A stretch of DNA of 64,000 nt from Vulcanimicrobiota bacterium (GTDB taxonomy: Bacteria; Vulcanimicrobiota; Xenobia; Xenobiales; JADMJV01): contig JAHBVR010000011.1 of the NCBI GenBank assembly GCA_019637395.1, positions 62,001 through 126,000 of the forward strand. Direction: 5' to 3'. A program made the position numbers and the translations under genes. The notes beneath the pieces were generated by a model. It was given only the letters and a program-made list of their open reading frames with translations. It was not told the origin of the DNA and made no database searches. How positions within the stretch are numbered: position 1 is the stretch's first letter; every line of letters begins with the position of its first letter. Of the stretch, positions 2,799-62,437 are shown one piece after another.

Positions 2799-3607
2799 AG
2801 TTCGGGAGGGCGGGCTCCGCCGATAAAGGTCGACCAGTTGATCGGCTCCTTCTTGGCGCCTTCCTTGGCGTTGTCCGTGCCCATGGTCATGCCGTTACCC
2901 AGATAAATTTCCACGTGGCTGGCCTGCCCCGGGGGGATACCGCGATCGTTGGGCGACCAGAAAAAGACCAGATCGCCGGGCTGCAGTTCTTCTTTGGAAA
3001 CTTTGTTGTTCTTGTAGTGGGCCTGCAAGCCGCGGGCGTTCATGTGGCCGACATTGGAGCCGGCCTGGCCCAGAGCCCAACTGACCAGGCCCGAGCAGTC
3101 GAACTTGTTCGGACCGGCGGCGCCGAACACATAGGGAGCGCCTTGCTTGGACAGAGCCGCGTCCATCAGCTTCTGCACCTTGGGGTTGGCCACTTTGGGC
3201 GAGTCCCCGGTGCTGCTGGTGGAGCTGGTGGAACCGGTCGAGCCGGTCGAGCCGCCGCCCGAAACCGAGCCGCCACCGGCGCTGGAAACCGCGTCACTAC
3301 CGCCCATCAAGGAGGCGAACGGCGAAGAACCGCCGCTGGAGCGATTGGACATCAGTCCCAGCAGCAATGACATCATGCCCAACAACAACTGGTTGGTTTG
3401 CTGACTGAGAGCCAGCATCTGAGCGGCGCCGGGATCAGGAACCCCGCCGAAGTTCACCGAAGTGAGGTTGAGGCCGGGGGTGCCGACACGCTGCAAAGCG
3501 CCTGCGTTGCCGAATCCTCCCAGGCCGGGAGGAAGGGCGGTGGGAGGGAAGCCGAAGCCTCCGAGGGTATCCAGGGTTCCAGTGGTGGGTTGTTGTACAG
3601 CGAACAT
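2792..3607 (-). CDS. NlpC/P60-type cell-wall peptidase
   Basis: A 271-residue protein. The C-terminal half (about 145-265) is an NlpC/P60 fold that would cleave peptidoglycan stem peptides: DCSGLV with the nucleophile Cys, then ASHVEIYLG with the catalytic His. The first 140 residues are Gly/Pro/Ser/Thr-rich and include a hydrophobic LLLGMMSLLLGLM stretch and a Gly-Ser-Thr linker. There is no classical signal peptide although the fold is nearly always extracytoplasmic; the N-terminus is of the Ser/Thr/Pro-rich kind seen in several other proteins here. It is convergent with the radical SAM gene. Confidence 0.9.
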   Translation of the reverse strand: MFAVQQPTTGTLDTLGGFGFPPTALPPGLGGFGNAGALQRVGTPGLNLTSVNFGGVPDPGAAQMLALSQQTNQLLLGMMSLLLGLMSNRSSGGSSPFASLMGGSDAVSSAGGGSVSGGGSTGSTGSTSSTSSTGDSPKVANPKVQKLMDAALSKQGAPYVFGAAGPNKFDCSGLVSWALGQAGSNVGHMNARGLQAHYKNNKVSKEELQPGDLVFFWSPNDRGIPPGQASHVEIYLGNGMTMGTDNAKEGAKKEPINWSTFIGGARPPELQ

Positions 3608-3680
3608 AATACAGTTTTAACTTCTTCTCCATAAACAGCGATAAAACAGACGGCTCAAATTTAACAAACTGGATAAACTT

Positions 3681-5117
3681 TTGCGCGACCCTTATCATTA
3701 TCAAGGAACCTGCCCCCAGAGCGGCCGCCTGCTGCGCCTGGAGCGCACGGTAGAAGCTGAAAGGGCGGCCTTCGAGCTGATGCGGGAGTTACCCGAACTG
3801 GCCGAAGGCAAGATGTTCGGCCTCTTGCTGACGGCTGAAGGAGCTGTTTTGCGGGCTTTCTCCGGCACACAGCCACAAGCAGGCTGGGCTCCGCCCATCT
3901 ATACGCCCGCTCCCAGCCCGGTACCGGCCCAATTGGACCAACTCAAGCTCGAGCTGCAGTCCCTGGCGGCGCACCCGGCTTTCGCGCGGCTGAGCGAGCT
4001 CGAGGCGGATTGGCAGGACCGGCTTTCCCAGTTTCAACAAAGCTGCCGTCTGGCCAAAGCACGGCGCGACGATTTACGCCGCCAGGGCGGGGAGGAAGCC
4101 CGGCTGACCCTGCAAAGCCAGCGCGAGAGCACCGCGCGACGGCATCTGCGCGCCCGGCGCCGGGCGGAGCTGGAGCCGCTGGCAAACGAGGTGGCGGAAC
4201 TGCGGACTCGCATCCTTGAACTGAAGAAACAGCGCCGCCAACTCTCCGCCAACCTGCAGCGGCAAATGCACGACGAGCTATCGCAAACTCTCTCGGCCGG
4301 TCAGGGCTGGTCCCTGGCCTCGCTCTTCCCGGCCGGCCCACCCACCGGCACCGGCGAGTGCTGCGCTCCCAAGCTCCTGTTTCAAGCGGCCCGCGCCGGT
4401 CTCACGCCGGTGGCCATGGCCGAGTTTTGGTGGGGTCCCGCTCAGGGGACGCGCCGACCCGGCGAATTTTACGCCGCCTGCGCCGAACGCTGCCAACCTC
4501 TGATCGGCCCCTTGCTGGCGCGTCTTCAACCCCTGAAAATTCTCCACCAGGATGACGAGTTGCTGGCGGTCGTCAAGCCACCGGGAGTGCTGACGGTGCC
4601 GGGCCGGCAGAGCTGGAACCAGGATTGCCTGTGGCGACGGCTGCAACGGGAGTTCCCGCAAATTCTCCCGGTCCACCGGCTGGACATGGAAACCTCGGGA
4701 GTGTGCCTCTGGGCTCTCACTCCGGAGTGCCAGCGCGAACTGCAGCGCCAGTTTGCCCAAAAGCTCGTAAAAAAAACTTACCGCGCCCTGCTCAGTAGCC
4801 AGCCGGCGCAGCGCTCCGGTCGTCTGGACCTGCCCCTGGCTCCCGACCCTGGTCAACCCGGACGCTATCGCATCGATCCAGAAGGCAAACCAAGCCTGAC
4901 CGAGTTCGAGCAAATCCAGGGCGCGCTCTACCAGTTTCGGCCGCACACCGGACGCAGCCATCAAATTCGCGTCCATGCCGCTCAGGGATTACAGGCCCCG
5001 GTTCAGGGAGACCGCCTCTACGGCGGGGGCGACGGCCCCCTCCGTCTGCACGCCTCTTGTTTAGAAGTACTTCACCGAGGACAGGTGCTGCGCCTCGAAG
5101 CGGCCGCGCCCTTCTAA
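3681..5117 (+). CDS. RluA-family pseudouridine synthase with long N-terminal extension
   Basis: A 478-residue protein. The catalytic domain is in the C-terminal 220 residues: VHRLDMETSG with the catalytic Asp near residue 334, YRALL, and RPHTGRSHQIRVH. It should isomerise uridine to pseudouridine in rRNA or tRNA. The first 250 residues (GKMFGLLL, AFSG, then a charged Arg/Glu/Gln-rich coiled coil at about 90-195) resemble the extended RluA subfamily. The start is a TTG without a clear Shine-Dalgarno, so the exact N-terminus is uncertain. The specific RNA target cannot be assigned. Confidence 0.88.
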   Translation: MRDPYHYQGTCPQSGRLLRLERTVEAERAAFELMRELPELAEGKMFGLLLTAEGAVLRAFSGTQPQAGWAPPIYTPAPSPVPAQLDQLKLELQSLAAHPAFARLSELEADWQDRLSQFQQSCRLAKARRDDLRRQGGEEARLTLQSQRESTARRHLRARRRAELEPLANEVAELRTRILELKKQRRQLSANLQRQMHDELSQTLSAGQGWSLASLFPAGPPTGTGECCAPKLLFQAARAGLTPVAMAEFWWGPAQGTRRPGEFYAACAERCQPLIGPLLARLQPLKILHQDDELLAVVKPPGVLTVPGRQSWNQDCLWRRLQREFPQILPVHRLDMETSGVCLWALTPECQRELQRQFAQKLVKKTYRALLSSQPAQRSGRLDLPLAPDPGQPGRYRIDPEGKPSLTEFEQIQGALYQFRPHTGRSHQIRVHAAQGLQAPVQGDRLYGGGDGPLRLHASCLEVLHRGQVLRLEAAAPF

Positions 5118-5629: not shown

Positions 5630-6370
5630 TCATGACAACTTCTGACAATCCAACTCCTTGAACTTGCGGCGCGACAGCGCCAGCAAAACAGCACTGGGCG
5701 GAGCCAAGAAGAAACCGCTCAGAGCCGTTCCCAGACCGAGCCGGCGGCGTTCTTGTAGAGGCTCCAGCAAGAGGTTATCCAGCGCGCCTTTGAGGCGCTC
5801 CAGGAAAGACTCCACGGTGTCGCCCTCCCTCCAATAGAGGGCCGCTCCAAAGCGCAGTAAGACCGGTCCGGGCTGTGCATAGAGATGCTCATGACTGCAT
5901 AAAGGCTGGGTCCCCACAATAGCCACCGGCACGACCGGAATGCCCGGCACGTCCCGAGCCAGCACGGCCACTCCACGCTTGAACTCGCCCAACGCCATCA
6001 TGGCCGTAGGCGCCGCCTCGGGGTAAATGCCCAGGCAGGTTCCCTGCCGTAGCGCCCCCCGAGCATGGCGCAGGCTATGGCTGCCGCGCTCCACGGGAAT
6101 CGAGCCCAGCGCCCGGAGAAAATGCCCCAATACAGGAAGGCGCAAAACTTTGGCGTCGATCAGAAAGCGCACTCGCCGAGGTGAAAAGACACCCAGCAGG
6201 CCGCCATCCAGCACGGTGGGATGATTGCCGGCCAAAATCGCCCCACCCTGGCGCGGGAAATGCTCCAAACCCTCAAACGAAACGGGCCAGTAAGGCCGGA
6301 CCAGAAGGCGAAAGAAACGCTGCCCCCAGCGATACCAAAGGGCATGCTCCCCAAACAAAGCCATTCCCAT
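5630..6370 (-). CDS. 1-acyl-glycerol-3-phosphate acyltransferase-like (PlsC family)
   Basis: About 246 residues with the PlsC/LPLAT motifs: NHPTVLDGG (the HX4D catalytic motif), a second block near GSIPVERGSHSLRHA, then IYPEAAPT (EGT-like block) and IPVVPVAIVG. It should transfer an acyl chain to a lysophosphatidate or a related lipid at the inner membrane. I chose the ATG at MGMALFGEH. An earlier ATG (6424) would overlap the divergent glycerophosphodiesterase start and no ribosome site favours it. Divergent pairing with a glycerophosphodiesterase suggests a lipid theme. Confidence 0.85.
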   Translation of the reverse strand: MGMALFGEHALWYRWGQRFFRLLVRPYWPVSFEGLEHFPRQGGAILAGNHPTVLDGGLLGVFSPRRVRFLIDAKVLRLPVLGHFLRALGSIPVERGSHSLRHARGALRQGTCLGIYPEAAPTAMMALGEFKRGVAVLARDVPGIPVVPVAIVGTQPLCSHEHLYAQPGPVLLRFGAALYWREGDTVESFLERLKGALDNLLLEPLQERRRLGLGTALSGFFLAPPSAVLLALSRRKFKELDCQKLS

Positions 6371-6422
6371 GGGTGAAAGGCCGGCAGGGAAAGTCCTGCT
6401 CGCCCCTTGAACCCGGTTCGCC

Positions 6423-7181
6423 ATGTTTACTCGTCGACAAGTTCTCGCTGCAGCCGCCCTGACCCCATGGCTGGAGGCCGCCCAGGAAAGGCCCACTATG
6501 AAGCCCTGGAACGTCGCCCACCGCGGGGGCGCCAAATTGAACCCGGAAAACACCCTGGCCGCTTTCGCAAAAGCCATCCAGCTAGGCTGTGACGCCTTCG
6601 AGCTGGACATCCACTTCAGCCGCGACCGCGATCTGGCCGTTATCCACGATGATACGTTGGACCGCACCAGCCACAGGCCGGGCGTGGTTCACGACATGAC
6701 CATGGCCCAACTGAAAGAAGCCGACCCCAGCATTCCGAGTTTACGCGAGGCCTTGCGAGCCGCCCGCGGTAAAGTGCTGGTCGAAATCAAGCATCCTTCC
6801 ACAGGACCGCGCTACGAAGGGCTGGAGGCAGTGCTGCTCAAGCAACTGGCAGAGGAGGCCATGCTGGACCAGGTGGTGGTCATTTCCTTTGAACGCCAAT
6901 CATTGAAGCTGCTCCGCGAACAGAACGCCACCATCCAAACCGGCCTCTTAGTGGGCGGCCAGAGCGACGTGCCGGCCGCTCAAAAAGAGCTCGGCTGCAA
7001 CTGGATCGCTCCCCACTACGGCGTGGTCGACCGCGGCTACGTGGAAATGGCCCACGCGCTGGGTTTGCGGGTCAACACCTGGACGGTCAACGACGAAGCG
7101 AACATGCGGCGCCTGCTGGAAGCCGGTTGCGATTCCATCACCAGCGATCGCCCCGACTTGCTTAAACAGATTCTCGCTTAG
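6423..7181 (+). CDS. Glycerophosphodiester phosphodiesterase
   Basis: 252 residues of the GDPD TIM-barrel family: VAHRGGAKLNPENT, FELDIHFSRD (metal-binding Glu/Asp) and HDDTLDRT carry the catalytic His and metal ligands, with EIKHP and NTWTVND later. It hydrolyses glycerophosphodiesters to glycerol-3-phosphate and an alcohol. The N-terminus (TRRQVLAAAALTPWLEAA) has an RR followed by a hydrophobic stretch, so export by Sec or possibly Tat is likely. The 3' end overlaps the convergent mscL by 20 bases. Confidence 0.93.
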   Translation: MFTRRQVLAAAALTPWLEAAQERPTMKPWNVAHRGGAKLNPENTLAAFAKAIQLGCDAFELDIHFSRDRDLAVIHDDTLDRTSHRPGVVHDMTMAQLKEADPSIPSLREALRAARGKVLVEIKHPSTGPRYEGLEAVLLKQLAEEAMLDQVVVISFERQSLKLLREQNATIQTGLLVGGQSDVPAAQKELGCNWIAPHYGVVDRGYVEMAHALGLRVNTWTVNDEANMRRLLEAGCDSITSDRPDLLKQILA

Positions 7182-7602
7182 CCAGAATATCCCGTATCTC
7201 CGCCAACAGCACCTCCTGGGGCGATGGCTCGGGAGGGGCCGCGGCTTCTTCCGCTTCCTGGGTCTTCTTGATCCGGTTGATGGTGCGCACGCACAGGAAG
7301 ACGACGAAGGCCAGGATCAACGTATTGAAGGCCACGGTCAGGAACTGGCCATAGCCCAGCACCACCGCACCCGCCACCTTACGGGCTTCCGCCAGGGGCA
7401 AGCCCTCGGCAACCGCTCCTTTGAGCACCAGGTAGCTGTTGGCGAAGTCGACCTTGCCCAGCAGCCCTGTCAGAGGCACCACCATCTCATCCACAAACGA
7501 CTTGAGAATGCCGGTCATGGCACTACCGATAATCACACCCACAGCCAGGTCGACGGCGTTGCCCTGACCGACGAATTCCTTGAACTCTTTGAAAATTGAC
7601 AT
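7162..7602 (-). CDS. mscL: Large-conductance mechanosensitive channel MscL
   Basis: 146 residues, typical length. FKEFVGQGNAVDLAVGVIIGSA is the conserved TM1 gate helix, followed by a periplasmic loop, TM2 (FNTLILAFVVFLCVRTINR) and a charged C-terminal bundle ending EVLLAEIRDIL. It forms the pentameric pressure-relief channel in the inner membrane. It lies 11 bases downstream of the peroxidase gene on the same strand, so they may be cotranscribed. Confidence 0.97.
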   Translation of the reverse strand: MSIFKEFKEFVGQGNAVDLAVGVIIGSAMTGILKSFVDEMVVPLTGLLGKVDFANSYLVLKGAVAEGLPLAEARKVAGAVVLGYGQFLTVAFNTLILAFVVFLCVRTINRIKKTQEAEEAAAPPEPSPQEVLLAEIRDILAKRESV

Positions 7603-7613
7603 GCAGAGACCTT

Positions 7614-8591
7614 TTACGGAGAGCGCACATAGTCCTTGGGAATTTCCCCGGTCAGCGAGGTAAGAAAGTCACAAAGCTCCGCCACCTCTTGAGGGGTGAG
7701 CTGCTGGCCGCACTCGTGGCGGCCCATCAGAGCGACCGCTTCCTCCAGCTGGCGCACCTGCCCGTTGTGATAATAGGGTCCCGTCTCGCAAACATTGCGC
7801 AGGGAAGGCACTTTGAAAACTCCATCGTCGGCGGCCGCGTGGGTGGCCAGGAAGCGACCGCGATCCTGGCTGGCGAAGGCCTCTTTGCGCCCCAACTTGC
7901 GCAGCTCGGTGCCACCGAGAGCGGCTCCGTGATGGCATTCCGCGCAGCCCACCCGCAGAAAGTGTTCCAAGCCTTTGAGTTGCCGAGAATCCAGCGCCGT
8001 CTCGTCGCCTTCCAGATAGCGGTCGAAGGGAGCCGGCGTTACCAGGCCGCGCTCAAAAGCACCGATGGCCAGCATCACGTAGGCGTAGCGCACCGGCTGC
8101 GGGTCGCCTGGAAAGGCCTGGGCAAACAGTCTCCGATAGCCGGGATCAGCCAGCAGCCGCTTTTCCACTTCGAAACCGTCCGGCATGGCCATCTCCACCG
8201 GATTGGTGAGAGGGGAACCCGCCTGGCTCTCCACCGTCGGGCTGCGCCCATCCCAGAATTGCCAGGAATGCAGAGCCGCGTGGTAGACGGTGGGAGCATT
8301 GCGGGTGCCGCGCCCGCTGACGGCTCCGGGTGAAGTCGGGCGCCCGTCGGCCCCAAAACCGTAGCGCAGGTCGTGGCAGCTATTGCAGCTCATGGTGTTG
8401 TTTTGGGAGAGCCGCTTTTCGTAAAAGAGCGTCCGCCCCAGCTCGATTAAAGCCGGGCCGGGTATCTTACCCTTTTCATCCATGCGCTGCGGCAGCGGTG
8501 CAAACACCTTCTGAGCGCGTTGCAGCAAGGAAAGAGGCTGGCCCAACACGGGCAGGACCAGTCCGAGAATCAGCCAGGCTTTGCGCTTCAT
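7614..8591 (-). CDS. Dihaem cytochrome c peroxidase (MauG/CCP family)
   Basis: 325 residues with a signal peptide (MKRKAWLILGLVLPVLGQ) and two CXXCH haem c sites, CNSCH near 69 and CAECH near 217. FYEKRLSQNNTMSCNSCH and the GTRNAPTVYHA, FWDGRS and PSLRNV blocks are typical of bacterial periplasmic peroxidases reducing H2O2 with cytochrome electrons. It is upstream of mscL on the same strand and divergent from the secreted protein gene beginning at 8612. Confidence 0.94.
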   Translation of the reverse strand: MKRKAWLILGLVLPVLGQPLSLLQRAQKVFAPLPQRMDEKGKIPGPALIELGRTLFYEKRLSQNNTMSCNSCHDLRYGFGADGRPTSPGAVSGRGTRNAPTVYHAALHSWQFWDGRSPTVESQAGSPLTNPVEMAMPDGFEVEKRLLADPGYRRLFAQAFPGDPQPVRYAYVMLAIGAFERGLVTPAPFDRYLEGDETALDSRQLKGLEHFLRVGCAECHHGAALGGTELRKLGRKEAFASQDRGRFLATHAAADDGVFKVPSLRNVCETGPYYHNGQVRQLEEAVALMGRHECGQQLTPQEVAELCDFLTSLTGEIPKDYVRSP

Positions 8592-8611
8592 CGCACAGAA
8601 CTGCTCAAGCG

Positions 8612-9391
8612 ATGAAATTCGCCCTGCTGGCCATAGTACTGGTGCTCTGCGTTCCGGCCTTCGGGCAGGAAGCCTGCGACCGTCAAGCCGCGCATATCCT
8701 GGGAATCCTGCATCTCACTGAGCATAACCATCAGATCTACAAAGAAAACCTGGCCACCCTTTTCTACAACCTGCGCGAGCCCGTGCCCGAAGCCTCTTTG
8801 GAATCCATCGAGTCGCTTCGTTCCTGGCTGCGCCAGAAAGAAGAACACTACCGCGAGCAGCGCACGGTAGGCAGCAACGAACTGGGCCGCTGGCCCAATA
8901 AGCTGGAAACCGCCCTGGCTCGCCCCTACACGGATTCCCAGGCGGCTCGCCACCTGGACGAGGTGGTATCGGCCTTCCACCGGCGCTGCCAGAAGCTGGC
9001 TCAAGCCCGGCCCGGTTATCCCCGCCGCTACTACGCCACCGGCGGACTGGTCTTCGGACGATTCGGGGCTTTCTCGGAGCTGGACTATTTCTTTAATGAT
9101 CCGATTTCCGGCAACAAACCGTTGGTGACCAACGGGCTTTGCCGCGGGGTGGCTTATGACGAACTCACTTTTCAGCAGCGCGTCGAGCATCCGTTGGTGG
9201 CCGGCGCCAGCTATGAACTGACCGGCCCCGAACCCTGGGAAAAGGTCCGCCAACTGGTGCTCGCGCATTTTTACGAGCGCGGTCTGAAGATCGAAAAAAT
9301 CCCGCTGGGCTGGAAAGTGGCGCGCGGCGGCTACCCCGCCCGCCACTACGAAGACCCCACCCCCGAGGCCGAGCGCGCCAAACCCCTCTAG
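8612..9391 (+). CDS. Secreted protein of unknown function
   Basis: 259 residues. The ATG begins a clear signal peptide (MKFALLAIVLVLCVPAFG, cut near GQEA). The mature protein starts helical and charged (HILGILHLTEHNHQIYKENL) and ends in a more globular part with SELDYFFNDP and YPARHYEDPTPEAERAKPL. I recognise no family. The frame stays open upstream over the peroxidase start, but that part is antisense coding and the signal peptide fixes the start. Confidence 0.75.
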   Translation: MKFALLAIVLVLCVPAFGQEACDRQAAHILGILHLTEHNHQIYKENLATLFYNLREPVPEASLESIESLRSWLRQKEEHYREQRTVGSNELGRWPNKLETALARPYTDSQAARHLDEVVSAFHRRCQKLAQARPGYPRRYYATGGLVFGRFGAFSELDYFFNDPISGNKPLVTNGLCRGVAYDELTFQQRVEHPLVAGASYELTGPEPWEKVRQLVLAHFYERGLKIEKIPLGWKVARGGYPARHYEDPTPEAERAKPL

Positions 9392-9393
9392 AG

Positions 9394-9612
9394 CTAAAGC
9401 ACGCCCGAGGCCGAAACCTTGAGCACCGCGCTGGAGTCTTTCTCCACGAAATAGAGCTTGTTGCCCAGCAACACCCAGCAAGCCGGCTTGCCTTCCTGGG
9501 AAGTGGCCGTGACCGAACCGTTCAAACCATCGGCCCGGGTGGGACGGGCCATCGAGAGCCCCAGGCCCATTCCCAGCAAAAGCAAACACAATAACAAAAA
9601 CGCCTTACGCAT
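9394..9612 (-). CDS. Small secreted protein, unknown
   Basis: 72 residues with a strong signal peptide (FLLLCLLLLGMGLGLSMA). The mature ~50 residues (GLNGSVTATSQEGKPACWVLLGNKLYFVEKD) look like a small beta-structured domain with one Cys. The next gene on the same strand ends 33 bases upstream. No family recognised. Confidence 0.6.
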   Translation of the reverse strand: MRKAFLLLCLLLLGMGLGLSMARPTRADGLNGSVTATSQEGKPACWVLLGNKLYFVEKDSSAVLKVSASGVL

Positions 9613-9644
9613 GATCTCAATTCCGCCTTTCCTAATGGAAAGGA

Positions 9645-10367
9645 CTACGAGCCGGCGATCAGGTTCTCTTGCTCGACCTCGAGGGCCGCTTCTTTGGCCA
9701 TCTCCATGGTTTCGTCGGGAAACTCCAGGGACAGGGGCTGGCTGCGGTCGTTGCCCGAGCCGCGGATATCCAGGGGATCGGCCAGAAACGAAGCCTGCTT
9801 CATCTCCATTTTGCCGGCTTCTTGGGCCTCGGGCCCGCTCTTCATATTGGACATCTTCTTCACGCCCTGCTTCATCTGGTTCTCCAGCACGCGCTCGGCG
9901 GCTTCCAGATTGGCCTCGGGCACGTCTTCCAAAACACGCTGATAAACGGTGTCCGGATCGTCATAAGCGGCCAGTTTGGCGGCCGTCAGGCGGGCCTGCA
10001 CCTTGTCGGCCGAATCCGGCGCGCTGGGAGCTTCCGGGTGCGGACCTTGCTGGGCCACTGTCGCCTGAGCGCGCTCGTTGCCGCGTTCCACCTTCTGCTC
10101 GTGCTTGGACTCGGGTTTCAGTTCCTCGCCCAGACCGGCGTGGTGAGCCAGTTGCTCTTCCTTGCCCTGGATATTCTCGGTGTGCTTACCCTGCAGCGAT
10201 TTGCGGGCGGCGTCCGAAAGATGAACTCCCCCACTCTCTTGCTCCGGCCGGGAGGATTTGGGAGCCGAGAACCTGGTCTGGTTGGCCGACGTGCCGCTCG
10301 TCTGGCGCAGATTCTCCAGCGTACCAGGATTGAAGATGGGATTATTGCCACCGATAGAGTTTGCCAT
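9645..10367 (-). CDS. Disordered hydrophilic protein, unknown
   Basis: 240 residues, Glu/Lys/Gln/Ala-rich, with no signal peptide and no membrane segment. The N-terminus (MANSIGGNNPIFNPGTLENL) is rich in Asn, Ser, Thr and Pro, much like type III secretion-type leaders. The C-terminal half is predicted helical (QRVLEDVPEANLEAAERVLENQ). I recognise no family. The N-terminal character is shared by several other proteins in the window. Confidence 0.65.
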   Translation of the reverse strand: MANSIGGNNPIFNPGTLENLRQTSGTSANQTRFSAPKSSRPEQESGGVHLSDAARKSLQGKHTENIQGKEEQLAHHAGLGEELKPESKHEQKVERGNERAQATVAQQGPHPEAPSAPDSADKVQARLTAAKLAAYDDPDTVYQRVLEDVPEANLEAAERVLENQMKQGVKKMSNMKSGPEAQEAGKMEMKQASFLADPLDIRGSGNDRSQPLSLEFPDETMEMAKEAALEVEQENLIAGS

Positions 10368-10429
10368 AGTAGCTATTCTATCACGCTATTCCCAGGACTG
10401 GACAAGACCCGCGCGAAACCTTTCGATCC

Positions 10430-10648
10430 ATGCGCAAGTCTTGCGCTTTCTTCGCCCTCCTCACTTCGCTGGCCGCGGCCCAACCGGCCGGCCCGGGTTA
10501 ATCTGCCGAGCGCCGGGCAGCAAGGACGCCGCTTGGCCGAGTCCGGCTACACCATCGTGCTCAACCTGGGGATCAGGCCAGCGACCTGGAGGGCGGCTAC
10601 CACGGAGCCGCCTTTAAACTGCCCAACCCTATGTACGATGTGCCTTGA
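10430..10648 (+). pseudogene. Decayed small secreted-protein gene with two frame changes
   Basis: An ATG opens a signal peptide (MRKSCAFFALLTSLAAAQ) that stops after 23 codons. The likely continuation (VNLPSAGQQGRRLAESG, YTIVLNL) is in another frame, and a third piece (GDQASDLEGGYHGAAFKLP, then NPMYDVP and a stop) returns to the first frame. The middle piece resembles the start of cysteine-phosphatase-like domains (sampled as LAxxGYxxVINL) but has no catalytic HC. It looks like a broken 70-residue remnant overlapping the convergent epimerase end. Confidence 0.45.
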
Positions 10649-11672
10649 AGGCGCTGAGAACGGCTTCTTCGCGTTGAGCGGGAAGGCCGGCTCGCAACGG
10701 TGTTTTATCCTGGTCTCGCCAGGCCAGAGTATCGGCGCCCGTCTGAGTTCCAGCTCGCGTGCGCAATCCCGCCTCCCGAGCCTTGGAGTTGTCTACCCGC
10801 GAGAAGCCGGCATTATCGCTATCACTCGGGACCCATAAGGGCAGGTCCTGCCAGGGTCGGACCCCGGCCTTTTCCAGAAACTCGCTCGGGACCCAGGTGA
10901 CCTGGAGATCGGGGCCGAGGAGATTGAAAAATGTACCGAACCGAGTAGAGTCCCCGGCCACGTTCATCACACCCTCGCGCCCGGCGGCCAGGGCGTCCAG
11001 AGCAAAAATGCACAGGTCACGAGCATCGATCCACTGCACCGTCTCGTCCGGGGACTCGGGGCCGAGAATCGGTCCCGGCCGGCGCACGCGGTCAGCCCAG
11101 TAAGTGAAACGGTCGGTCTTATCGTAGGGTCCGGCGATCACGCAGGGGCGAAAAATCAAAGCCCGTGAGCCCAGTTTCTGTTGCACGGCGCGCTCGCAAA
11201 GAATTTTGCGAGCCGCGTAGTTGCCCGGCTCGATGGTGTCCACCTGGACGTCGGCGGTGGGCGCCAGCGGGGACTCTTCGCTGATCGGCTCGCGCGAGTG
11301 CTCGTAGACCGAGATGGTGGAGATAAACAGATAGCGACCGCAGTCCTTGAGCCTGGAAGTGGACTCCTCCAACCAGGCCGGCAACTGCCCGGAGGTATCG
11401 ACGACATAGTCGTAATTCTTGCCGTTCAAAGTCGAAGGCAAGGACTTATTCCGGTCGGCCAGGATCTGAGTGGCTCCCTGCACCAGACTGGAGGTATCCT
11501 CGTGCAGATGCAGCAAAGTCAGCTGGTAGCCGCGGCGCAAGGCTTCCTCAGCCAGATTGCGGCCTAAGAAGCCGGTTCCACCCAGGATCAGCAAACGGGG
11601 AGCCTCGGCCGCCTTCACGGCCGGCAGGGCGGCCAGAGCGGCCGCACCGGCTAGAAACTCCCGCCGCCTCAC
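10629..11672 (-). CDS. NAD-dependent epimerase/dehydratase-like protein with Tat-type leader
   Basis: 347 residues. MRRREFLAGAAALAALPAVKA is a twin-arginine-like signal. An extended SDR follows: LILGGTGFLGRN (dinucleotide binding), STISVYEH, then NYAARKILCE where the catalytic YxxxK would be YAARK. It resembles isoflavone-reductase/epimerase-like proteins of unknown substrate. The GTG start overlaps the stop of the GH13 gene (GTGA), so translation is coupled. An exported SDR needs a bound cofactor, which fits Tat export of a folded protein. Confidence 0.82.
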   Translation of the reverse strand: MRRREFLAGAAALAALPAVKAAEAPRLLILGGTGFLGRNLAEEALRRGYQLTLLHLHEDTSSLVQGATQILADRNKSLPSTLNGKNYDYVVDTSGQLPAWLEESTSRLKDCGRYLFISTISVYEHSREPISEESPLAPTADVQVDTIEPGNYAARKILCERAVQQKLGSRALIFRPCVIAGPYDKTDRFTYWADRVRRPGPILGPESPDETVQWIDARDLCIFALDALAAGREGVMNVAGDSTRFGTFFNLLGPDLQVTWVPSEFLEKAGVRPWQDLPLWVPSDSDNAGFSRVDNSKAREAGLRTRAGTQTGADTLAWRDQDKTPLRAGLPAQREEAVLSAFKAHRT

Positions 11673-13225
11673 AACGGCATGTAAATGCCGGCGGATTTAC
11701 CGTTCAGTTGACTGCGAATGCGCCCGTTTTCCACGGTCACCGTCTGGCCCGTGAGCAGTTCCTTGAGCACGGTGCCGTCCCGGATCTTACTCTCGGGACG
11801 CACGGGGATCTCGCGCGTCTGGCCGTCGCCAGAGTTGTTGAGCACGACCACGGCTTCGCCGCCCTCAGCCACCCGGCCAAAAGCGTAAATCTGATCGTCC
11901 TGCCACATCTCCAGGCGCTTGCCTTCGCGCAAAGCTACCGAGTCGTTGCGAATGGCGCCCAGCTTCTGGGTGTAGGCCAGCAGCTCGGGGTTGGCGCCAA
12001 ATTCCATGTCGCGGCGGCTGGTTTCACTCCAACCGGTGTCGTCGCTCTGCATGCCGACCTCGGTGCCGTAATACACGGTGGGAATACGATTGATGGTCAT
12101 CTGGAAAGCCAGCGCCAGCTTCAGCTTGTCCATGTCGCCGCCGGCCTTGGTGAGGAAGCGCTTGGTGTCGTGATTGTCCAGGAAGGATGACATCATTTCG
12201 GGATGCGGATAGTTGCGATCGCATTCTTCCATGCGATTGGCCAACTGGCGCATGGAGCCGCCTTTGGCGAAGACGTCGTCCATGGTGTAGTAGAGCGGAT
12301 AGTCGACCAGACCGTCCATGTCGCCGTTCTGGAAAGGCGCGAACTTGGTCGGGTCGCCGTGGTAATACTCGCCCACCAGGTAGAAATCTTTGCCGGCGGT
12401 GGCGTGAATCTCTTGATTGAACTTGTTCCAGAACGAAATGGGCACGTTCTTGACGGCGTCCAGGCGGAAGCCGTCCACGCCGGTCTTGGCCCAGAACTTG
12501 CCCACCTCGATCAGATATTTCTCGACCGCCGGATTCTCCTGAGCCAGGTCAGGCAGGCCGAAGATGGAGCAGTTTTCCGACTGCCACTGGTCGTTCCAAT
12601 CGGTTACGTCGCCGTTGTGGTGGAACCAGTCGTGCTTATCCGGATCGTTCTTGAAGGGGTGTTCCCAGGCCACGTGGTTGAGGGGAATGTCGAGCAGAAT
12701 CTTGAGGCCCTTTTCGTGCGCCTTCTCCACGAACTCGTTGAATTTCTCCATGGTGCCGACCCGTTCATCGACTTTGAAGTGGTCGATGGGCCAGTAGCCG
12801 TGATAGCCATCGGAGTCGACGAAGCTGGTCTGGTTGGCCATGGGCGGGGTGATCCAGATGGCCGTGGCGCCGGTATCGCGAATGTAATCGAGCTTGTCGA
12901 TGACCCCCTGGAGATCGCCGCCATGCCAGCGGTTGATGTCCTCTTTGTTGACCCCCACGTTGTTGCTGGGGTCGCCGTCCTGAAAACGGTCGGTGAGCAA
13001 GAAGTAAATGGAGTCGTCTTTCCACTGGCGCACCTTGGGGTCAAATTCGACGGGGGTGGGGTTGGGAACGCCGGAGGGCACGGCCGTGGGCATCCTCTTG
13101 GGGATCAGCTTTTCCTGGGGTTGCCGGTTCAGAACCACGTCGTCGGCCACCTCAGACTGGGCGGACAGGCTTCTGGGGGTGAACACCGGGGTGGGCAGGG
13201 CACGACCAAGACTTTGAATTTGCAC
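11669..13225 (-). CDS. GH13 alpha-amylase family hydrolase without signal peptide
   Basis: 518 residues. A (beta/alpha)8 barrel starts near 70 (SIYFLLTDRFQDGDPSNN). Family GH13 motifs: DIPLNHVAWEHP, GFRLDAVKN with the nucleophile Asp, VGEYYHG with the acid Glu, and FLDNHDTKRF with the third Asp. A C-terminal beta domain ends IYMPL. It should cut alpha-1,4-glucans. The first 65 residues (MQIQSLGRALPTPVFTPRSL) are Pro/Ser/Thr/Val-rich and are not a Sec signal, unlike the neighbouring GH13. Transcribed with the epimerase. Confidence 0.95.
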   Translation of the reverse strand: MQIQSLGRALPTPVFTPRSLSAQSEVADDVVLNRQPQEKLIPKRMPTAVPSGVPNPTPVEFDPKVRQWKDDSIYFLLTDRFQDGDPSNNVGVNKEDINRWHGGDLQGVIDKLDYIRDTGATAIWITPPMANQTSFVDSDGYHGYWPIDHFKVDERVGTMEKFNEFVEKAHEKGLKILLDIPLNHVAWEHPFKNDPDKHDWFHHNGDVTDWNDQWQSENCSIFGLPDLAQENPAVEKYLIEVGKFWAKTGVDGFRLDAVKNVPISFWNKFNQEIHATAGKDFYLVGEYYHGDPTKFAPFQNGDMDGLVDYPLYYTMDDVFAKGGSMRQLANRMEECDRNYPHPEMMSSFLDNHDTKRFLTKAGGDMDKLKLALAFQMTINRIPTVYYGTEVGMQSDDTGWSETSRRDMEFGANPELLAYTQKLGAIRNDSVALREGKRLEMWQDDQIYAFGRVAEGGEAVVVLNNSGDGQTREIPVRPESKIRDGTVLKELLTGQTVTVENGRIRSQLNGKSAGIYMPL

Positions 13226-36090: not shown

Positions 36091-36491
36091 GGCGCCCCCA
36101 CCTCAAACTCGACCCGGCTGGAGAACACCTGAACGCGCAGTTGTTCTCCGTCGCGCTCGAGGCGCACTCTCTGTTTGCGCAGTTGCAGACGCTCGCCGGC
36201 GGCTAGAGGCCAGCGCCGCGCATAGTCGCGCATCCGCTCCTGCATTCGTTCCGGCTGGCGCGCCTGCGCCTGCAGGCGTTGAAAATTGAGCGGCCAGAGC
36301 AGAGTGGCAGAACGGACCTCATGCCTGCTCCCGTCGGCGCTGATGCGAAAAAGCCCGTATTGGGTGAAGGCTCCCAGGCGCAGGGGAGCGGAATACATTG
36401 GAAAGTTGGAGAATGGCCAGGAATCGATGTCCAAAATCGCGCATCCCAGCAACGGTAAAACCAGAAGCCCGATACACAAGCGCGCCCGCAT
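36087..36491 (-). CDS. Lipoprotein partner of the HTTM protein
   Basis: 134 residues. MRARLCIGLLVLPLLGC ends in a lipobox (LLGC), so Cys17 is probably lipidated. DSWPFSNFPMYSAPL is typical of small proteins encoded beside HTTM genes. The stop overlaps the HTTM start by 4 bases, supporting a shared function. Role unknown. Its start lies within the divergent hydrolase gene if that begins at 36427. Confidence 0.65.
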   Translation of the reverse strand: MRARLCIGLLVLPLLGCAILDIDSWPFSNFPMYSAPLRLGAFTQYGLFRISADGSRHEVRSATLLWPLNFQRLQAQARQPERMQERMRDYARRWPLAAGERLQLRKQRVRLERDGEQLRVQVFSSRVEFEVGAP

Positions 36492-38775
36492 CGGCCTATC
36501 TTATCCTTTCGTCCAGGCAACCCTGTGCCTGATCCTGCTGCTGGCCGCCGCGCTGGCCTGGCGGTTCTGGCCCCGCTCCCGCCTGCGAGCCGGCAGCGAA
36601 GAGCTGATAGAGAACCTGATCGAGCGGGCCATCACCGAGCACAAACTACCGGGAGCGGTCGTGCTCGTCGGTCATCGGGGCCGGATCGTCTACCGGCGAG
36701 CCTTCGGCCAGCGCGCGCTGGAGCCGGCCCGGGAGGCCATGACGGTCGACACCATCTTCGATCTCTCCAGCCTGACCAAGGTGCTGGCCACGGCCACCAG
36801 CATCATGCTGCTCTCGGAACGCGGCCAGCTCTTGCTGAGCGACCCGCTCGGCAAATTTGTTCCTCACCTTCAGGATCCCCTGGCCCGTTCCATCACCTTG
36901 GAACAGTTGCTGACCCACACTTCAGGCTATCCCGCCCAACTGGACCTGAGCAAACCCTGGCAGGGTAGAGAAGGCGCTTATGAAGAGCTGCAAAAGCAAA
37001 TTCTACTGGATCAACCCGGTAGCCGCTACCGCTACTCGGACATCAACTACATCGCTCTCGGCTTTGTAGTGGAAAAGGTGGCCGAGCAAGACCTGGCCAG
37101 CTTCACCCACGACCAGCTCTGGGTTCCTCTGGGAGTGGCCGAGACGACGCGCTTCTGTCCCCCTGAAAGCCTCACTCCCATCGCCCCCACGGAATGGCGC
37201 GACGGAAAGATGCTGCGCGGCGGCGTGCACGGCCTGCAGGCCGCCCGCATGGGGGGAATCGCCGGCAACGGCGGTCTTTTCTCGCGAGCGGACGACCTCG
37301 CCCGCTACTGCCAGATGATTCTCGACGGCGGCCGCTGGCATGGCCGCCAAATCCTGGGGTCCAACACTCTGGCCCGCATGGTCCGGCCGGTGGTCGTGTC
37401 CGAAACAGGCGCCAGCCGCGGCCTGGGGTGGGATCTCGACTCCCGCCTGGCCGTCAGCCGCGGCGACTTCTTTCCGCGCGGATCCTTCGGCCACACCGGT
37501 TACGCCGGCAGCTCCATCTGGATCGATCCGGGTAGCCAGACTTACGTCATCTTCCTCAGCAACATGGTGCACCCCCGAGGTCAAGGCGACGTGCGCGAGT
37601 TAAGGGCGCGCCTTTTTAGCCTGGTGGCGGCCAGCCTCGAGGATGCCGACCCCCAGGCCTGGTCGCGCGGCGAAGAAGAGTATGCCGCCCGGCTCCAGGT
37701 TGGCCTGCAGCTCTTCCGAAACCAGCGAGCCGCCCTGAATTCCCAGCCCGGGCTCGACTCGCCCCCGGTGCAAAACGGCCTGGAGGTGCTGGGCGAGCGC
37801 AACTTCGCCGAACTGCGCGGCAAGCGCAACGGCCTGCTCGGACCTCCTTCCACCCTGAAACGCCTGCGCGCAGCCGGCCTTGAAGTGGTGGCCTTGCAGT
37901 CTCCCCCCACCACGCCGCAACTGGAGCAGGTCCAACAGCTCGTCATCGACCTGGCCGCACCCGGTACTCGCTTCGATCCCCAACTGGTCGAGCTGCGCAA
38001 CTGGCTGCTGGTGGCCGCACCCATCCGCCTGCCCGTGCTGCTCCTGGACCACCCCTGCTGGTTGGGCGGAGAGCATCTGGAAGGGCCGGTGGCCAACGGC
38101 CGTCCCGGCCGCGCGCCCGACGCCGTGTGGATGCCGATGCTGCCCACCCAGCCGGCCATGACTCTGGGCGAGCTGGCCGGCTGGCTCAATCAGGAGAGCC
38201 AGTTGGGAGTGCGGCTGCAAGTTGTGCCGGCCCGGGGTTGGAAACGCTCCGCCCGCCTGGAGGAGATCGGGCAGGTCTTGGAATCGACCGTTTCCGGCCT
38301 GGACAATCTCACCACCTTGCTCCTCTATCCGGCCCTGGGGCCACTGGAAGAGACCAACCTGTCGGTCGGCCGGGGTACCGAGCGGCCCTACGGCTGGGTA
38401 GGTGCTCCCTGGATCGACTCGCTGCAACTGGCCGGGATGCTCAACCACCAGGGCGTGCCCGGCATGCGCTTCGCCGCTCACCAGCGGCGCCCGCGCTCGC
38501 ACGCCTTCGCCGGCCAGGTCTGCGGAGGAGTGGACCTGCTGCTGGTCGATCGCTCCCAGGTGCATAGCCAGCGGGTCGGCCTGGAAATCGGTTGCGCGCT
38601 ACGCCGCCTCTATCCCCAACAGTGGCGCTGGTCTGACTGGAGTTCATCCTTTCAGGAAAGCGCCACCATCCGAGCCTTGCAGCGCAGCCCCAGGCCTCCG
38701 GAAATCGAAGCCGCCTGGCAACCCGCCCTGGCCGAATTCCGCAAGCGGCGCCAGCCTTATCTGCTCTACAAATAG
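36427..38775 (+). CDS. Serine hydrolase (beta-lactamase-like) fused to degenerate DUF1343 domain
   Basis: About 782 residues. After a positively charged N-terminus and a membrane helix (LCLILLLAAALAWRF), a class C/PBP-like hydrolase covers about 55-410: SSLTK (Ser-xx-Lys), YRYSDINY (YxN-like) and GHTGYAG (KTG-like). A DUF1343 (NamZ exo-N-acetylmuramidase) domain follows: LGERNFAELRGKRNGLL, HPCWLGGEHLEGPV, GRGTERPYGWVGAPWID and VCGGVDLLLVDRSQ. The family's FGPEHG motif is not found and NVSEGRGT is NLSVGRGT, so this half may be non-catalytic. The start is doubtful: ATG 36427 has AGGA but overlaps the divergent gene by 65 bases. Confidence 0.82.
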   Translation: MSKIAHPSNGKTRSPIHKRARIGLSYPFVQATLCLILLLAAALAWRFWPRSRLRAGSEELIENLIERAITEHKLPGAVVLVGHRGRIVYRRAFGQRALEPAREAMTVDTIFDLSSLTKVLATATSIMLLSERGQLLLSDPLGKFVPHLQDPLARSITLEQLLTHTSGYPAQLDLSKPWQGREGAYEELQKQILLDQPGSRYRYSDINYIALGFVVEKVAEQDLASFTHDQLWVPLGVAETTRFCPPESLTPIAPTEWRDGKMLRGGVHGLQAARMGGIAGNGGLFSRADDLARYCQMILDGGRWHGRQILGSNTLARMVRPVVVSETGASRGLGWDLDSRLAVSRGDFFPRGSFGHTGYAGSSIWIDPGSQTYVIFLSNMVHPRGQGDVRELRARLFSLVAASLEDADPQAWSRGEEEYAARLQVGLQLFRNQRAALNSQPGLDSPPVQNGLEVLGERNFAELRGKRNGLLGPPSTLKRLRAAGLEVVALQSPPTTPQLEQVQQLVIDLAAPGTRFDPQLVELRNWLLVAAPIRLPVLLLDHPCWLGGEHLEGPVANGRPGRAPDAVWMPMLPTQPAMTLGELAGWLNQESQLGVRLQVVPARGWKRSARLEEIGQVLESTVSGLDNLTTLLLYPALGPLEETNLSVGRGTERPYGWVGAPWIDSLQLAGMLNHQGVPGMRFAAHQRRPRSHAFAGQVCGGVDLLLVDRSQVHSQRVGLEIGCALRRLYPQQWRWSDWSSSFQESATIRALQRSPRPPEIEAAWQPALAEFRKRRQPYLLYK

Positions 38776-59602: not shown

Positions 59603-60355
59603 TCAGCGCCCGTTCATAAACTTGCGCAAAAACTCCGTATAGGCCGGCCCCAGCGGCAGTTGCTCGTCACAAAAGACGCGCCGGCGGGTGGCCCGGCTCT
59701 CGGCTCCGGTGAGCGGATTGCGCCCGAGCTTTTCGTATTCTTGCCAGTAAAGCCCGCTGCCGCGCTTCTGCCAGCCCGGCAAGTCGTTGAAGTTGACTCC
59801 TCGCTGGAAGAGCAATTCGTTCTTAAAAGCGAAATTACGCCCGTGCAGCTGGCGGGTGGCTGCGCGCACGCTCATGCCTTCCTGGCGCAACTTCCAGTAA
59901 CACCAACCGTTGAGGCAGCAGCGCGTGGCGTCGGCCTGACGCCATTGGAAGTAATCCACCACCACTTCTTCGTTGGCGGCTACGCACAGCCGGCTATCGC
60001 AATGCACCTCCTGCTGAAAAGCCAGGCTCAAGACAGCGCTGGCGGTGGCCGCCGAGATTGATACCAGCTTCTCTTGCTCCCGGTCAAACAGCCGGGTGTT
60101 GCGGTCGAGCAAGATGGAGATCTCGTCGCTCTCGGTGTAGACGTAGAGGGCGTGCATCTCCTCCAGCAGGCGTCCGGCGGCCTGCACCATGGCCTGATGA
60201 AAGACCGGATCGAAGGGCTTCTCGAAGCGCTTCTCGGTCAACTTGGAGAAATTGCGGCCATCCACGCGCAGAATCGGCCAGGCCTGCGGCAGCACCTGCT
60301 GGGAATGATAAATTTCCAGGCGGCGCATGCGCTCGTCCAACTGATCGAATTTCAT
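59603..60355 (-). CDS. Thg1-like 3'-5' RNA polymerase (tRNAHis guanylyltransferase family)
   Basis: 250 residues. RVDGRNFSKLTEKRFEKPFD carries the first metal Asp (D32) and TESDEISILLDR the second site (D77, E78). Thg1-like proteins add nucleotides to the 5' end of RNA in the 3'-5' direction, activating a 5'-monophosphate with ATP or GTP. Bacterial forms repair truncated tRNA 5' ends. The ATG overlaps the RtcA-kinase stop (ATGA): translation of both is coupled, which strongly supports a shared RNA-repair role. Confidence 0.93.
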   Translation of the reverse strand: MKFDQLDERMRRLEIYHSQQVLPQAWPILRVDGRNFSKLTEKRFEKPFDPVFHQAMVQAAGRLLEEMHALYVYTESDEISILLDRNTRLFDREQEKLVSISAATASAVLSLAFQQEVHCDSRLCVAANEEVVVDYFQWRQADATRCCLNGWCYWKLRQEGMSVRAATRQLHGRNFAFKNELLFQRGVNFNDLPGWQKRGSGLYWQEYEKLGRNPLTGAESRATRRRVFCDEQLPLGPAYTEFLRKFMNGR

Positions 60356-61749
60356 AACCGCAGCACCTCGCTAAATCCTTCTTCTAAAGTCGGGGGCTGC
60401 AGGCGGCTGTGCACCACCTTGAGCCCCACCTCCGGCACCCGGGCCGCGCCCTCGCGAGTGGCATTGCGCTCCCAGCAAAGCTCCCGGGGCGTATCCACAA
60501 ACACGGCCCGAACCGGAGCCCCCCACTTGCGGGCCGCTTCGATCAAAGGCTGGCGGTCTTCGATGGCCGGATTGGTGTTGTCCACCACCACTGCTTCCCC
60601 CGCCTGCAGGGCCTTCTCCAGCAGTTGCATTTGGCGGCGCTGCCGGTTGGAATTGTTGCGCAGCAAATCCTTGCTGACCAGCCGGTGCTGGGGCAGGTGC
60701 GAACGCGCGTAAGTGCTCTTACCCGAAGCCTGCAGGCCCACCATGACCACCACCTCGTAAGGCAAAGTGGTCAACAACGAATCGAAGCGCCGGATGCGCG
60801 GCCCCAGAAAAGCCGCCGCCACCTCCAGGTTGGCCAGGCAGTGCGGTGACAACTCCTGACAGCGCATACGCCCACCCACCAGCGCCAGCAGGGGAACCAG
60901 CTGGTCGGCCAGATACTCTTCCACCGGCTCGGTTCGCTCCATTTTCTCACGCAGGCGAAACACGGCCGCTTCAGCCACCTGCTCGGAACTCTTGCCTTTC
61001 TCGCCCAGCACCCCCACCCCACAGCGCAGCCGCTCATCCTCGGCCCATAGCGTAAGCGCAGTACCGGTGCTGGCGCTCCTGGCATACTCCACCTCCACGG
61101 GCGCTTCCAGCAAGGCCCCGGCCCTTTCAGCCAGGCGCTCGGCCACGCGCCGCTCGCTCAAATCACGGGCGGCCACGGCCCGACCGCCCAAGTTCCGCCA
61201 CTGCGGGGGCGCGGCCAGATCCAAAGGAGTGGTGAGGTCACCGGGCTGGCTGCGAAAGCGCCACAGGCCCTGCCCCTTGGGGAAAAATCCTCGTTTCTTT
61301 TCGACGGTCTCGATAGGAGCCAGCTCTCGGTAGAGAGGCAGGGTCACCTCTTCCAGGTAGTCGAGCGGAGGCGACCAGGACACGTCGCTGCCGCCGCGCA
61401 CCTCCACCTCGCAAGGGCCCGGGGCGGCCGCCAGAGCCCAGAAAGTTGCCTGCAGCAGCAAAGTCATGGAGCCGGCCGTGTCGATATCGACCTGGAAGCT
61501 CCCCCTCCGGAGCGGGCCCGGTTCAAAGCTCAACTCGGTGGAGTGGAGAGCGTCTCCGCGCAGGCGGGCATTACACAGTTGGGCGGCCAACCGAACGGCG
61601 GCCAGATGCTGCGCCTGCAGGCCCGGACGGCTGCGGCCGGCGCGAATGTGCGTCAGCCGAAAAGCCTGTCCGGTACGGGCGGCCAGAGCCAGAGCGGTGC
61701 GCAGAATCTGTCCACCGCCCTCATGAATATCCCCGCGCAACTCGATCAC
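60352..61749 (-). CDS. RNA 3'-phosphate cyclase (RtcA) fused to a PNKP-type 5'-kinase
   Basis: 465 residues. Residues 1-330 are RtcA: ELRGDIHEGGGQILRTALAL, SRPGLQAQHL, FFPKGQG, EYLADQLVPLLAL and SPHCLANLEVAAAFL with the catalytic His (H303). It converts an RNA 3'-phosphate to a 2',3'-cyclic phosphate through an AMP intermediate. Residues 333-465 form a P-loop kinase most like the kinase half of animal PNKP: VGLQASGKST (Walker A, 338-346), KDLLR with the likely base D361, VVDNTNPAIEDR and QPPTLEEGFSEVL. It should phosphorylate a 5'-OH end. The GTG is chosen because VIELRGDIHEGGGQ is the standard N-terminus; no good ribosome site is seen. Confidence 0.9.
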   Translation of the reverse strand: MIELRGDIHEGGGQILRTALALAARTGQAFRLTHIRAGRSRPGLQAQHLAAVRLAAQLCNARLRGDALHSTELSFEPGPLRRGSFQVDIDTAGSMTLLLQATFWALAAAPGPCEVEVRGGSDVSWSPPLDYLEEVTLPLYRELAPIETVEKKRGFFPKGQGLWRFRSQPGDLTTPLDLAAPPQWRNLGGRAVAARDLSERRVAERLAERAGALLEAPVEVEYARSASTGTALTLWAEDERLRCGVGVLGEKGKSSEQVAEAAVFRLREKMERTEPVEEYLADQLVPLLALVGGRMRCQELSPHCLANLEVAAAFLGPRIRRFDSLLTTLPYEVVVMVGLQASGKSTYARSHLPQHRLVSKDLLRNNSNRQRRQMQLLEKALQAGEAVVVDNTNPAIEDRQPLIEAARKWGAPVRAVFVDTPRELCWERNATREGAARVPEVGLKVVHSRLQPPTLEEGFSEVLRL

Positions 61750-61963
61750 GGGCAAGAGGGTAGCCGGGATGGAAAATTGCGTCAACCACAAGAGCGCAGG
61801 GCAATCTCGACTCCGGCAAAAACCGCGCGCCAGCATGTCATGCAACATCCCGATCAACGAGCCGAGGAGGAACGCCTGCGGGGCCGAGCGGTTGCCCAGC
61901 CCCGAGCAGCCTCTAGCGGGGATGGAATTGAACTCTTTTGCCGAACCAGGCGTAGCTCGCCGT

Positions 61964-62437
61964 ATGCCTGAAGATGATTTTCCGATAGGGGTTCCCGGGC
62001 TCGAAGAACCCCGGCCGAAAGGCACAAGTTGCCTGCTGCTGCTTGCCCATCCGCTGGTATTCACAGGGGGGTTCTTTGCCGCGCTGATACTGTTACCGAA
62101 TTTCCTACCACCCAGAGCCCAAGGCCAATTGACCGCCTGCAAATCCAATTGCAAGAACCTCGCCACCGCCCTGGAGATGTATGCCAGCGACCATCAGGGC
62201 CTCTATCCGGGCAATCTGGATCGATTAATTGCCGGCAACTATTTGAAGGTGATTCCCACCTGCCCTTCCGTCAGCCGGGTAACCTATACGGACTACCGGG
62301 TCTCTCCGAAACAAACTTACTTCCACTTTTCCTGTGTGGGAAATAACCACGCCCGCGCTTATACCGGTTTTGCAAGCAAGAGCAGCGACGACCTGCCCGC
62401 CTACTCGTCCGAGAAGGGGCTGGTGGACCATCCGTGA
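61964..62437 (+). CDS. GspG-like pseudopilin with altered N-terminus
   Basis: 157 residues. NFLPPRAQGQLTACKSNCKN, ATALEMYASDHQGLYPGN, YLKVIPTCPSV and NNHARAYTGFASKSSDDLP match type II secretion pseudopilin-like proteins. The usual leader (G|FTLIE...) is replaced by GTSCLLLLAHPLVFTGGFFA, so a membrane helix is kept but the peptidase cleavage and N-methylation motif is not. The start is uncertain (ATG 61964 or 61922; neither has a good ribosome site). Probably a divergent accessory protein. Confidence 0.62.
   Translation: MPEDDFPIGVPGLEEPRPKGTSCLLLLAHPLVFTGGFFAALILLPNFLPPRAQGQLTACKSNCKNLATALEMYASDHQGLYPGNLDRLIAGNYLKVIPTCPSVSRVTYTDYRVSPKQTYFHFSCVGNNHARAYTGFASKSSDDLPAYSSEKGLVDHP

Follow-up and report, generated by a model that had tools for sequence, protein, structure and literature searches.

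Introduction

In bacteria, the most persistent genomic neighbour of Thg1 is a kinase of the polynucleotide kinase (PNK) family, and these gene neighbourhoods led to the proposal that the kinase makes the 5'-phosphate needed by Thg1 (Anantharaman, Iyer and Aravind 2010, Biol Direct 5:43, PMC2904730). Thg1-like proteins (TLPs) act on 5'-phosphate ends, and the bacterial and archaeal members prefer the repair of 5'-truncated tRNA, with the in vivo role of the bacterial reverse polymerases being unsettled (PMC6471195). RtcB joins 5'-OH ends, and a 5'-kinase competes with it (PMC13247085). Here we describe a two-gene locus on a 64,000-nucleotide stretch of DNA from a Vulcanimicrobiota bacterium (assembly GCA_019637395.1, contig JAHBVR010000011.1, positions 62,001 to 126,000; hereafter the window), in which an RtcA-type RNA 3'-phosphate cyclase and a PNK-type kinase form a single polypeptide whose gene overlaps that of a TLP. 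RtcA, best known for its activity on 3'-phosphates, converts them to the 2',3'-cyclic phosphates used by RtcB, and many RNases leave a 5'-OH on cleavage.

The central idea of an initial annotation of the window was that the kinase supplies Thg1 with its 5'-phosphorylated substrate. This idea is sound, and since the link was proposed in 2010 it is an already-published prediction rather than a new one (PMC2904730). RtcA is not mentioned in the text of the 2010 paper, and our literature search, the reach of which did not extend to the 2016 RNA-repair review of Burroughs and Aravind, found no description of an RtcA-kinase fusion. The fusion is apparently a novel, locally restricted form of the known PNK-Thg1 module.

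Results

The locus is made up of the following features:

60352..61749, minus strand: RtcA-polynucleotide kinase fusion, 465 amino acids, GTG start (profile and structure-sequence matches)
60790..61749, minus strand: RtcA domain of the fusion, residues 1-320, with insert domain and catalytic His303 (TIGR03399, PDB matches)
60355..60789, minus strand: PNKP-type 5'-kinase domain of the fusion, residues 321-465 (PNKP and CthPnkp matches, AlphaFold2, Foldseek)
59603..60355, minus strand: TLP, 250 amino acids, D32/D77/E78 (Pfam domains; closest solved structure the M. acetivorans TLP, 5axk)
60352..60355, minus strand: 4-nucleotide ATGA stop/start overlap of fusion and Thg1 (equivalents in loci L005, L006, L034 and L040)

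The fusion is read from the GTG at 61749 to its end at 60352, with RtcA homology over approximately residues 2-320 and the polynucleotide-kinase domain over residues 333-465. The coordinates and the fusion itself, as initially annotated, are thus borne out by profile matches to both domains. A longer alternative frame, opening with a GTG at 62166, was rejected; its extra part precedes the RtcA homology, and in the orthologue from a congener (L005) an ATG occupies the point equivalent to 61749. The RtcA half matches Pfam RTC (PF01137) at 220 bits as well as RTC_insert (PF05189), and its TIGR03399 score of 297.8 bits lies above the 250-bit equivalog cut-off. Among solved structures it aligns over the RtcA length with PDB 4o89 (E=1e-55) and E. 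coli RtcA 1qmh (E=2e-49), and its catalytic His and N-terminal E/R/Q-H motifs align with those of the latter (HEGGGQILR at residue 9, IRAGR at 35 and SPHCLAN at 301, containing H303). Judged by domain and residues, this half is a complete RtcA-type RNA 3'-phosphate cyclase.

The kinase domain carries the full set of PNKP-type features, with Walker A GLQASGKS at 338, the general-base Asp at D361, DNTNP at 390 and the arginines of the lid ERNATRE at 427. Its Pfam match is AAA_33 (79 bits), and TIGR01663 (PNKP) and TIGR04075 (bacterial Pnkp) cover the kinase part only, with scores far under their full-length cut-offs. The closest solved relatives by sequence are mammalian PNKP (E=2e-13) and the Pnkp kinase of C. 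thermocellum (CthPnkp; E=5e-12). An AlphaFold2 model of this domain alone had a predicted local distance difference test score (pLDDT) of 87; the model of the whole fusion (pLDDT 51) was not used. In a Foldseek search with the kinase model, ranks 1-13 were all PNKP or CthPnkp, with query-normalised template modelling (TM) scores of 0.79-0.88 (0.83-0.88 to PNKP) and E-values down to 1e-12; the top metabolic kinase had E=4e-7, and gluconate kinase came well behind PNKP and CthPnkp. The C-terminal domain, which sequence and modelled fold both rank with polynucleotide-type kinases above metabolic ones, is thus a kinase of the polynucleotide type, and its PNKP-type identity, proposed earlier from motifs, holds.

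The TLP matches PF04446 (103 bits) and Thg1C (56 bits), and the three metal-binding carboxylates that had been picked out initially, D32, D77 and E78, are all found alongside these two domains. The overlap of 4 nucleotides at 60352..60355 is likewise as first noted: the sequence at the junction reads ...GGTTATGAAATTC, and the Thg1 start sits inside the fusion stop codon (TTATGAAA). Because the main-domain Pfam E-values of the two proteins range from 1e-14 to 1e-65 and both are kept at 77-80% identity in a congener, the fusion and Thg1 are beyond chance.

Kinase decay in a relative lacking Thg1

Thg1 was found in 4 of the 149 genomes of the phylum, all four within the family of the window genome. 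The full fusion with Thg1 is present in the window genome (G000) and in its congener G136 (L005), the two loci being 77-80% identical. In a second congener, G137 (L006), the kinase is a separate protein whose gene overlaps Thg1, and two RtcA genes lie elsewhere in the genome. In G135 the fusion is present and Thg1 was not found. The fusion of G138 is cut by a contig end; it has lost the catalytic Asp to an in-frame deletion and has a frame-disturbed start as well, so that this case is ambiguous.

G135, whose genome is 97% complete, offers the most telling comparison. Its RtcA half is 86% identical to that of the window, with a nonsynonymous divergence (dN) of 0.09, whereas its kinase half is 61% identical over the aligning remainder (dN 0.32) and has lost three elements, namely the LLRNN..RRQM segment that follows the catalytic Asp, DNTNP and the entire ERN.RE/VPEVG lid. 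This loss of motifs is the firm part of the comparison. By contrast, between the window and L005, both of which have Thg1, the kinase (79% identity) and RtcA (77%) are equally conserved, with dN/dS of about 0.1 each, a rough ratio since synonymous divergence (dS) is near or above 1. These values argue that both halves are selected within one protein where Thg1 is present. That RtcA was kept and the kinase decayed in G135, which lacks Thg1, suggests that the kinase serves Thg1 and not RtcA, and this is the simplest reading. Gene neighbourhoods alone had given no genetic evidence for the coupling of kinase and Thg1, which the decay of the kinase now provides.

Distribution of the module

The recurrence of the kinase with Thg1 extends across phyla. 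Kinase-Thg1 pairs without RtcA occur on two plasmids, one from Deinococcus taeanensis (L034) and a linear one from Embleya (L035), and, in reversed gene order, on a viral contig (L040); the kinase and Thg1 genes overlap by 4 nucleotides in the window, L005, L006 and L034, and also in L040. Among more distant viral Thg1 genes, the kinase lies 54 bp away in L073 and about 0.9 kb away in L060; the more distant Thg1 genes inspected on plasmids and in phages had no kinase nearby. A Thg1 tree disperses the six close members that have a linked kinase over a single clade of 19 (support 0.96). The fusion of RtcA and kinase beside Thg1, by comparison, recurs in the congener locus L005, and no such fusion was found outside the genus in the collections of phages, plasmids and viral contigs searched, so that its expected recurrence held within the genus only. 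The other RtcA genes of the phylum have frames of stand-alone length and no kinase. Two candidate loci (L007 and L008) were dismissed as false matches; they are GrpE loci.

Several of these loci have neighbours suggestive of RNA repair. The L034 stretch (7158-12784) contains the PNK-type kinase, Thg1, a HAD-like DUF705 fragment, Hen1 and two RlaP RNA-repair nucleotidyltransferase genes, and may be an RNA-repair island, possibly coordinating 5' and 3' nucleotide restoration. On a plasmid of Deinococcus sp. QL22 (L039, 6001-6381), Thg1 survives as a remnant only, and the surrounding 12 kb yielded neither the kinase nor the Hen1 and RlaP seen in the related island on the D. taeanensis plasmid. 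In L073 (5849-7595) the Thg1-kinase pair is followed by two metallophosphoesterase-like genes, possibly a counterpart for 3'-end healing, and on a Thiodictyon plasmid (L036, 8013-9771) the Thg1 gene overlaps that of an RlaP nucleotidyltransferase, with BREX genes a few kilobases away. Actinobacterial plasmids also encode relatives of the Thg1-linked kinase (L037, 5758-6468; L038, 5917-6447), with no Thg1 found nearby.

Genome context

RtcB is absent from the window, as first reported, and is encoded elsewhere in the genome, on contig C23 rather than on the contig with the fusion (C3); every one of the six family genomes has it. Contig C22 of the window genome carries a complete Hen1-Pnkp cassette (L031, 7235-11460; TIGR04074, 578 bits; TIGR04075, 1267 bits). 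The tRNA-His gene of this genome encodes G-1, paired with C73, which leaves the TLP dispensable for its textbook role of G-1 addition; the TLP is likely instead to repair the 5' ends of damaged tRNA. The window has no Rfam match or tRNA, and PADLOC gave no match. No MACRO or RNA-ligase gene was recognised beside the pair by eye in the window or L005, where not every neighbour was scanned; such genes are optional and found in only a subset of the published PNK-Thg1 neighbourhoods.

Small pseudopilin-like genes with a LTACKSNCKNLATALEMY motif lie near the locus (window 61955-62437; L005 1967-3505; L027 6774-8698) and are tandemly repeated beside it in the relatives L005 and L027. A gene for a cysteine-rich TPR-type protein of about 350 amino acids is located upstream of the fusion in these relatives (L005 about 3545-4585; L027 about 5730-6750), but no counterpart of it turned up in the window or in 19 kb adjoining it. 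Farther away, one open reading frame on the plus strand (36286-38775) joins a beta-lactamase-type serine hydrolase to a NamZ exo-N-acetylmuramidase.

Discussion

From domain content and gene arrangement, we judge it fairly probable that the locus encodes a 5'-end RNA repair module of the PNK-Thg1 kind, acting most likely on tRNA, in which RtcA has been newly joined to the kinase. According to this model, the kinase would phosphorylate 5'-OH ends made by RNA-cleaving toxins or nucleases, and the translationally coupled TLP would adenylylate the resulting 5'-phosphate before adding the missing nucleotides in the 3'-to-5' direction against the opposite strand. The fused RtcA would meanwhile convert 3'-phosphate ends of damaged RNA to 2',3'-cyclic phosphates for the separate RtcB pathway. 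We infer that RNA is the substrate, that toxin damage is the trigger and that RtcA shares a substrate pool with its partners and not a reaction chain. The locus itself is real and coherent and is under selection, with its function a prediction.

The initial annotation had gone further and seen in RtcA, kinase and Thg1 a single, complete end-healing logic, a claim that is not supported. RtcB requires a 5'-OH, and 5'-phosphorylation by the kinase destroys that substrate, so the three activities are unlikely to form one ligation pathway; we know of no ligase that joins the 2',3'-cyclic product of RtcA to a 5'-phosphate end. Moreover, the kinase-Thg1 pair exists without RtcA (L006, L034, L035 and L040), and RtcA persists in G135 with the kinase decayed and Thg1 gone. 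It is more likely that RtcA and the kinase act on opposite ends or on different fragments.

How closely the two halves of the fusion cooperate can be viewed in several ways. They may have been joined only for co-expression or co-localisation, with RtcA serving RtcB, the kinase serving Thg1 and no substrate in common, and the separation of the parts in G137 and G135, along with the location of RtcB and Hen1-Pnkp on other contigs, fits such an arrangement. We nevertheless regard it as unlikely, given that the fusion has been kept with both domains equally conserved between the window and L005. At the other extreme, a broken RNA might have its two ends repaired by a single polypeptide: the kinase would prime the 5' end on behalf of the TLP, and RtcA would protect or activate ends by one of two routes, capping the 3' end as a cyclic phosphate during 5' rebuilding or making AppRNA for TLP extension. 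This we consider quite doubtful; if true, it would amount to a coordinated, ligase-free restoration of tRNA acceptor stems. RtcA of E. coli is said to adenylylate 5'-phosphate ends, in work attributed to Chakravarty and Shuman in 2011, and the fusion could on that basis be a 5'-adenylation machine, in which the kinase makes a 5'-phosphate and RtcA an A5'pp5'-RNA end to be used by Thg1 for 3'-5' addition or by a ligase. The fusion would channel the kinase product to RtcA, an ATP-activated 5' end is a TLP intermediate as well (PMC6471195), and ligation via 5'-App was raised in the 2010 paper (PMC2904730). TLPs activate their own substrate, however, so RtcA would be redundant, and the existence of the pair without RtcA in other lineages, the retention of RtcA in G135 without a working kinase or Thg1, and the better-known 3'-phosphate activity of RtcA all make this scheme improbable.

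Two more mundane explanations are far less credible. Pfam AAA_33 is a broad family, and the folds of gluconate kinase and O-phosphoseryl-tRNA kinase match the C-terminal domain too, but the Foldseek ranking and the agreement of the DNTNP motif with PNKP make a metabolic P-loop kinase very unlikely. Similarly, the protein family is named for tRNA-His guanylyltransferase, and ordinary tRNA-His maturation with incidental neighbours could be imagined; the encoded G-1 opposite C73, the rarity of Thg1 in the phylum and the archaeal TLP as closest solved relative leave this a very remote prospect.

Returning to the repair module that we favour, several observations weigh against it. The top sequence match of the kinase is a DNA-repair PNKP, and since sequence and fold cannot separate RNA from DNA substrates, DNA is a possible substrate. 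In the sister-genus genome G139, Thg1 is flanked by neither a kinase nor RtcA; a kinase adjoins Thg1 in only 6 of the 19 loci of the Thg1 clade, and some members of the kinase clade (L037 and L038) have no Thg1 next to them. In addition, the natural experiment comprises two genomes, G135, which is clear, and G138, which is ambiguous, with dS values near or above saturation. Nevertheless, a two-gene locus with natural mutants in one genus provides a direct testing ground for the 2010 proposal that the kinase feeds Thg1, and the RtcA fusion adds a further question, that of coordination between repair at the 3' and 5' ends.

Compared with described systems, the locus shares with the RtcBA/RtcR operon a full-length RtcA with its catalytic residues and an RtcB in the genome, but its rtcB is on another contig and its RtcA is fused to a kinase (PMC7790460); no RtcR, Rsr or Y-RNA gene was recognised next to the fusion. 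With the Hen1-Pnkp and Pnkp1-Rnl-Hen1 systems it has in common a CthPnkp/PNKP-type kinase domain and the logic of 5'-OH healing, whereas the fusion locus is without phosphatase, ligase or Hen1. The TLP resembles BtTLP and MaTLP in its Thg1 and Thg1C domains and three metal-binding carboxylates, is nearer to MaTLP than to BtTLP, and is linked to a kinase, unlike the remoter Thg1 genes inspected on plasmids and in phages. The closest counterpart is the PNK-Thg1 neighbourhood (PMC2904730), in which a PNK-family P-loop kinase likewise adjoins Thg1 in one predicted operon with the same proposed chemistry, and kinase-Thg1 pairs are spread over distinct lineages (L005, L006, L034, L035 and L040); what sets the present locus apart is the attachment of its kinase to the C-terminal end of RtcA.
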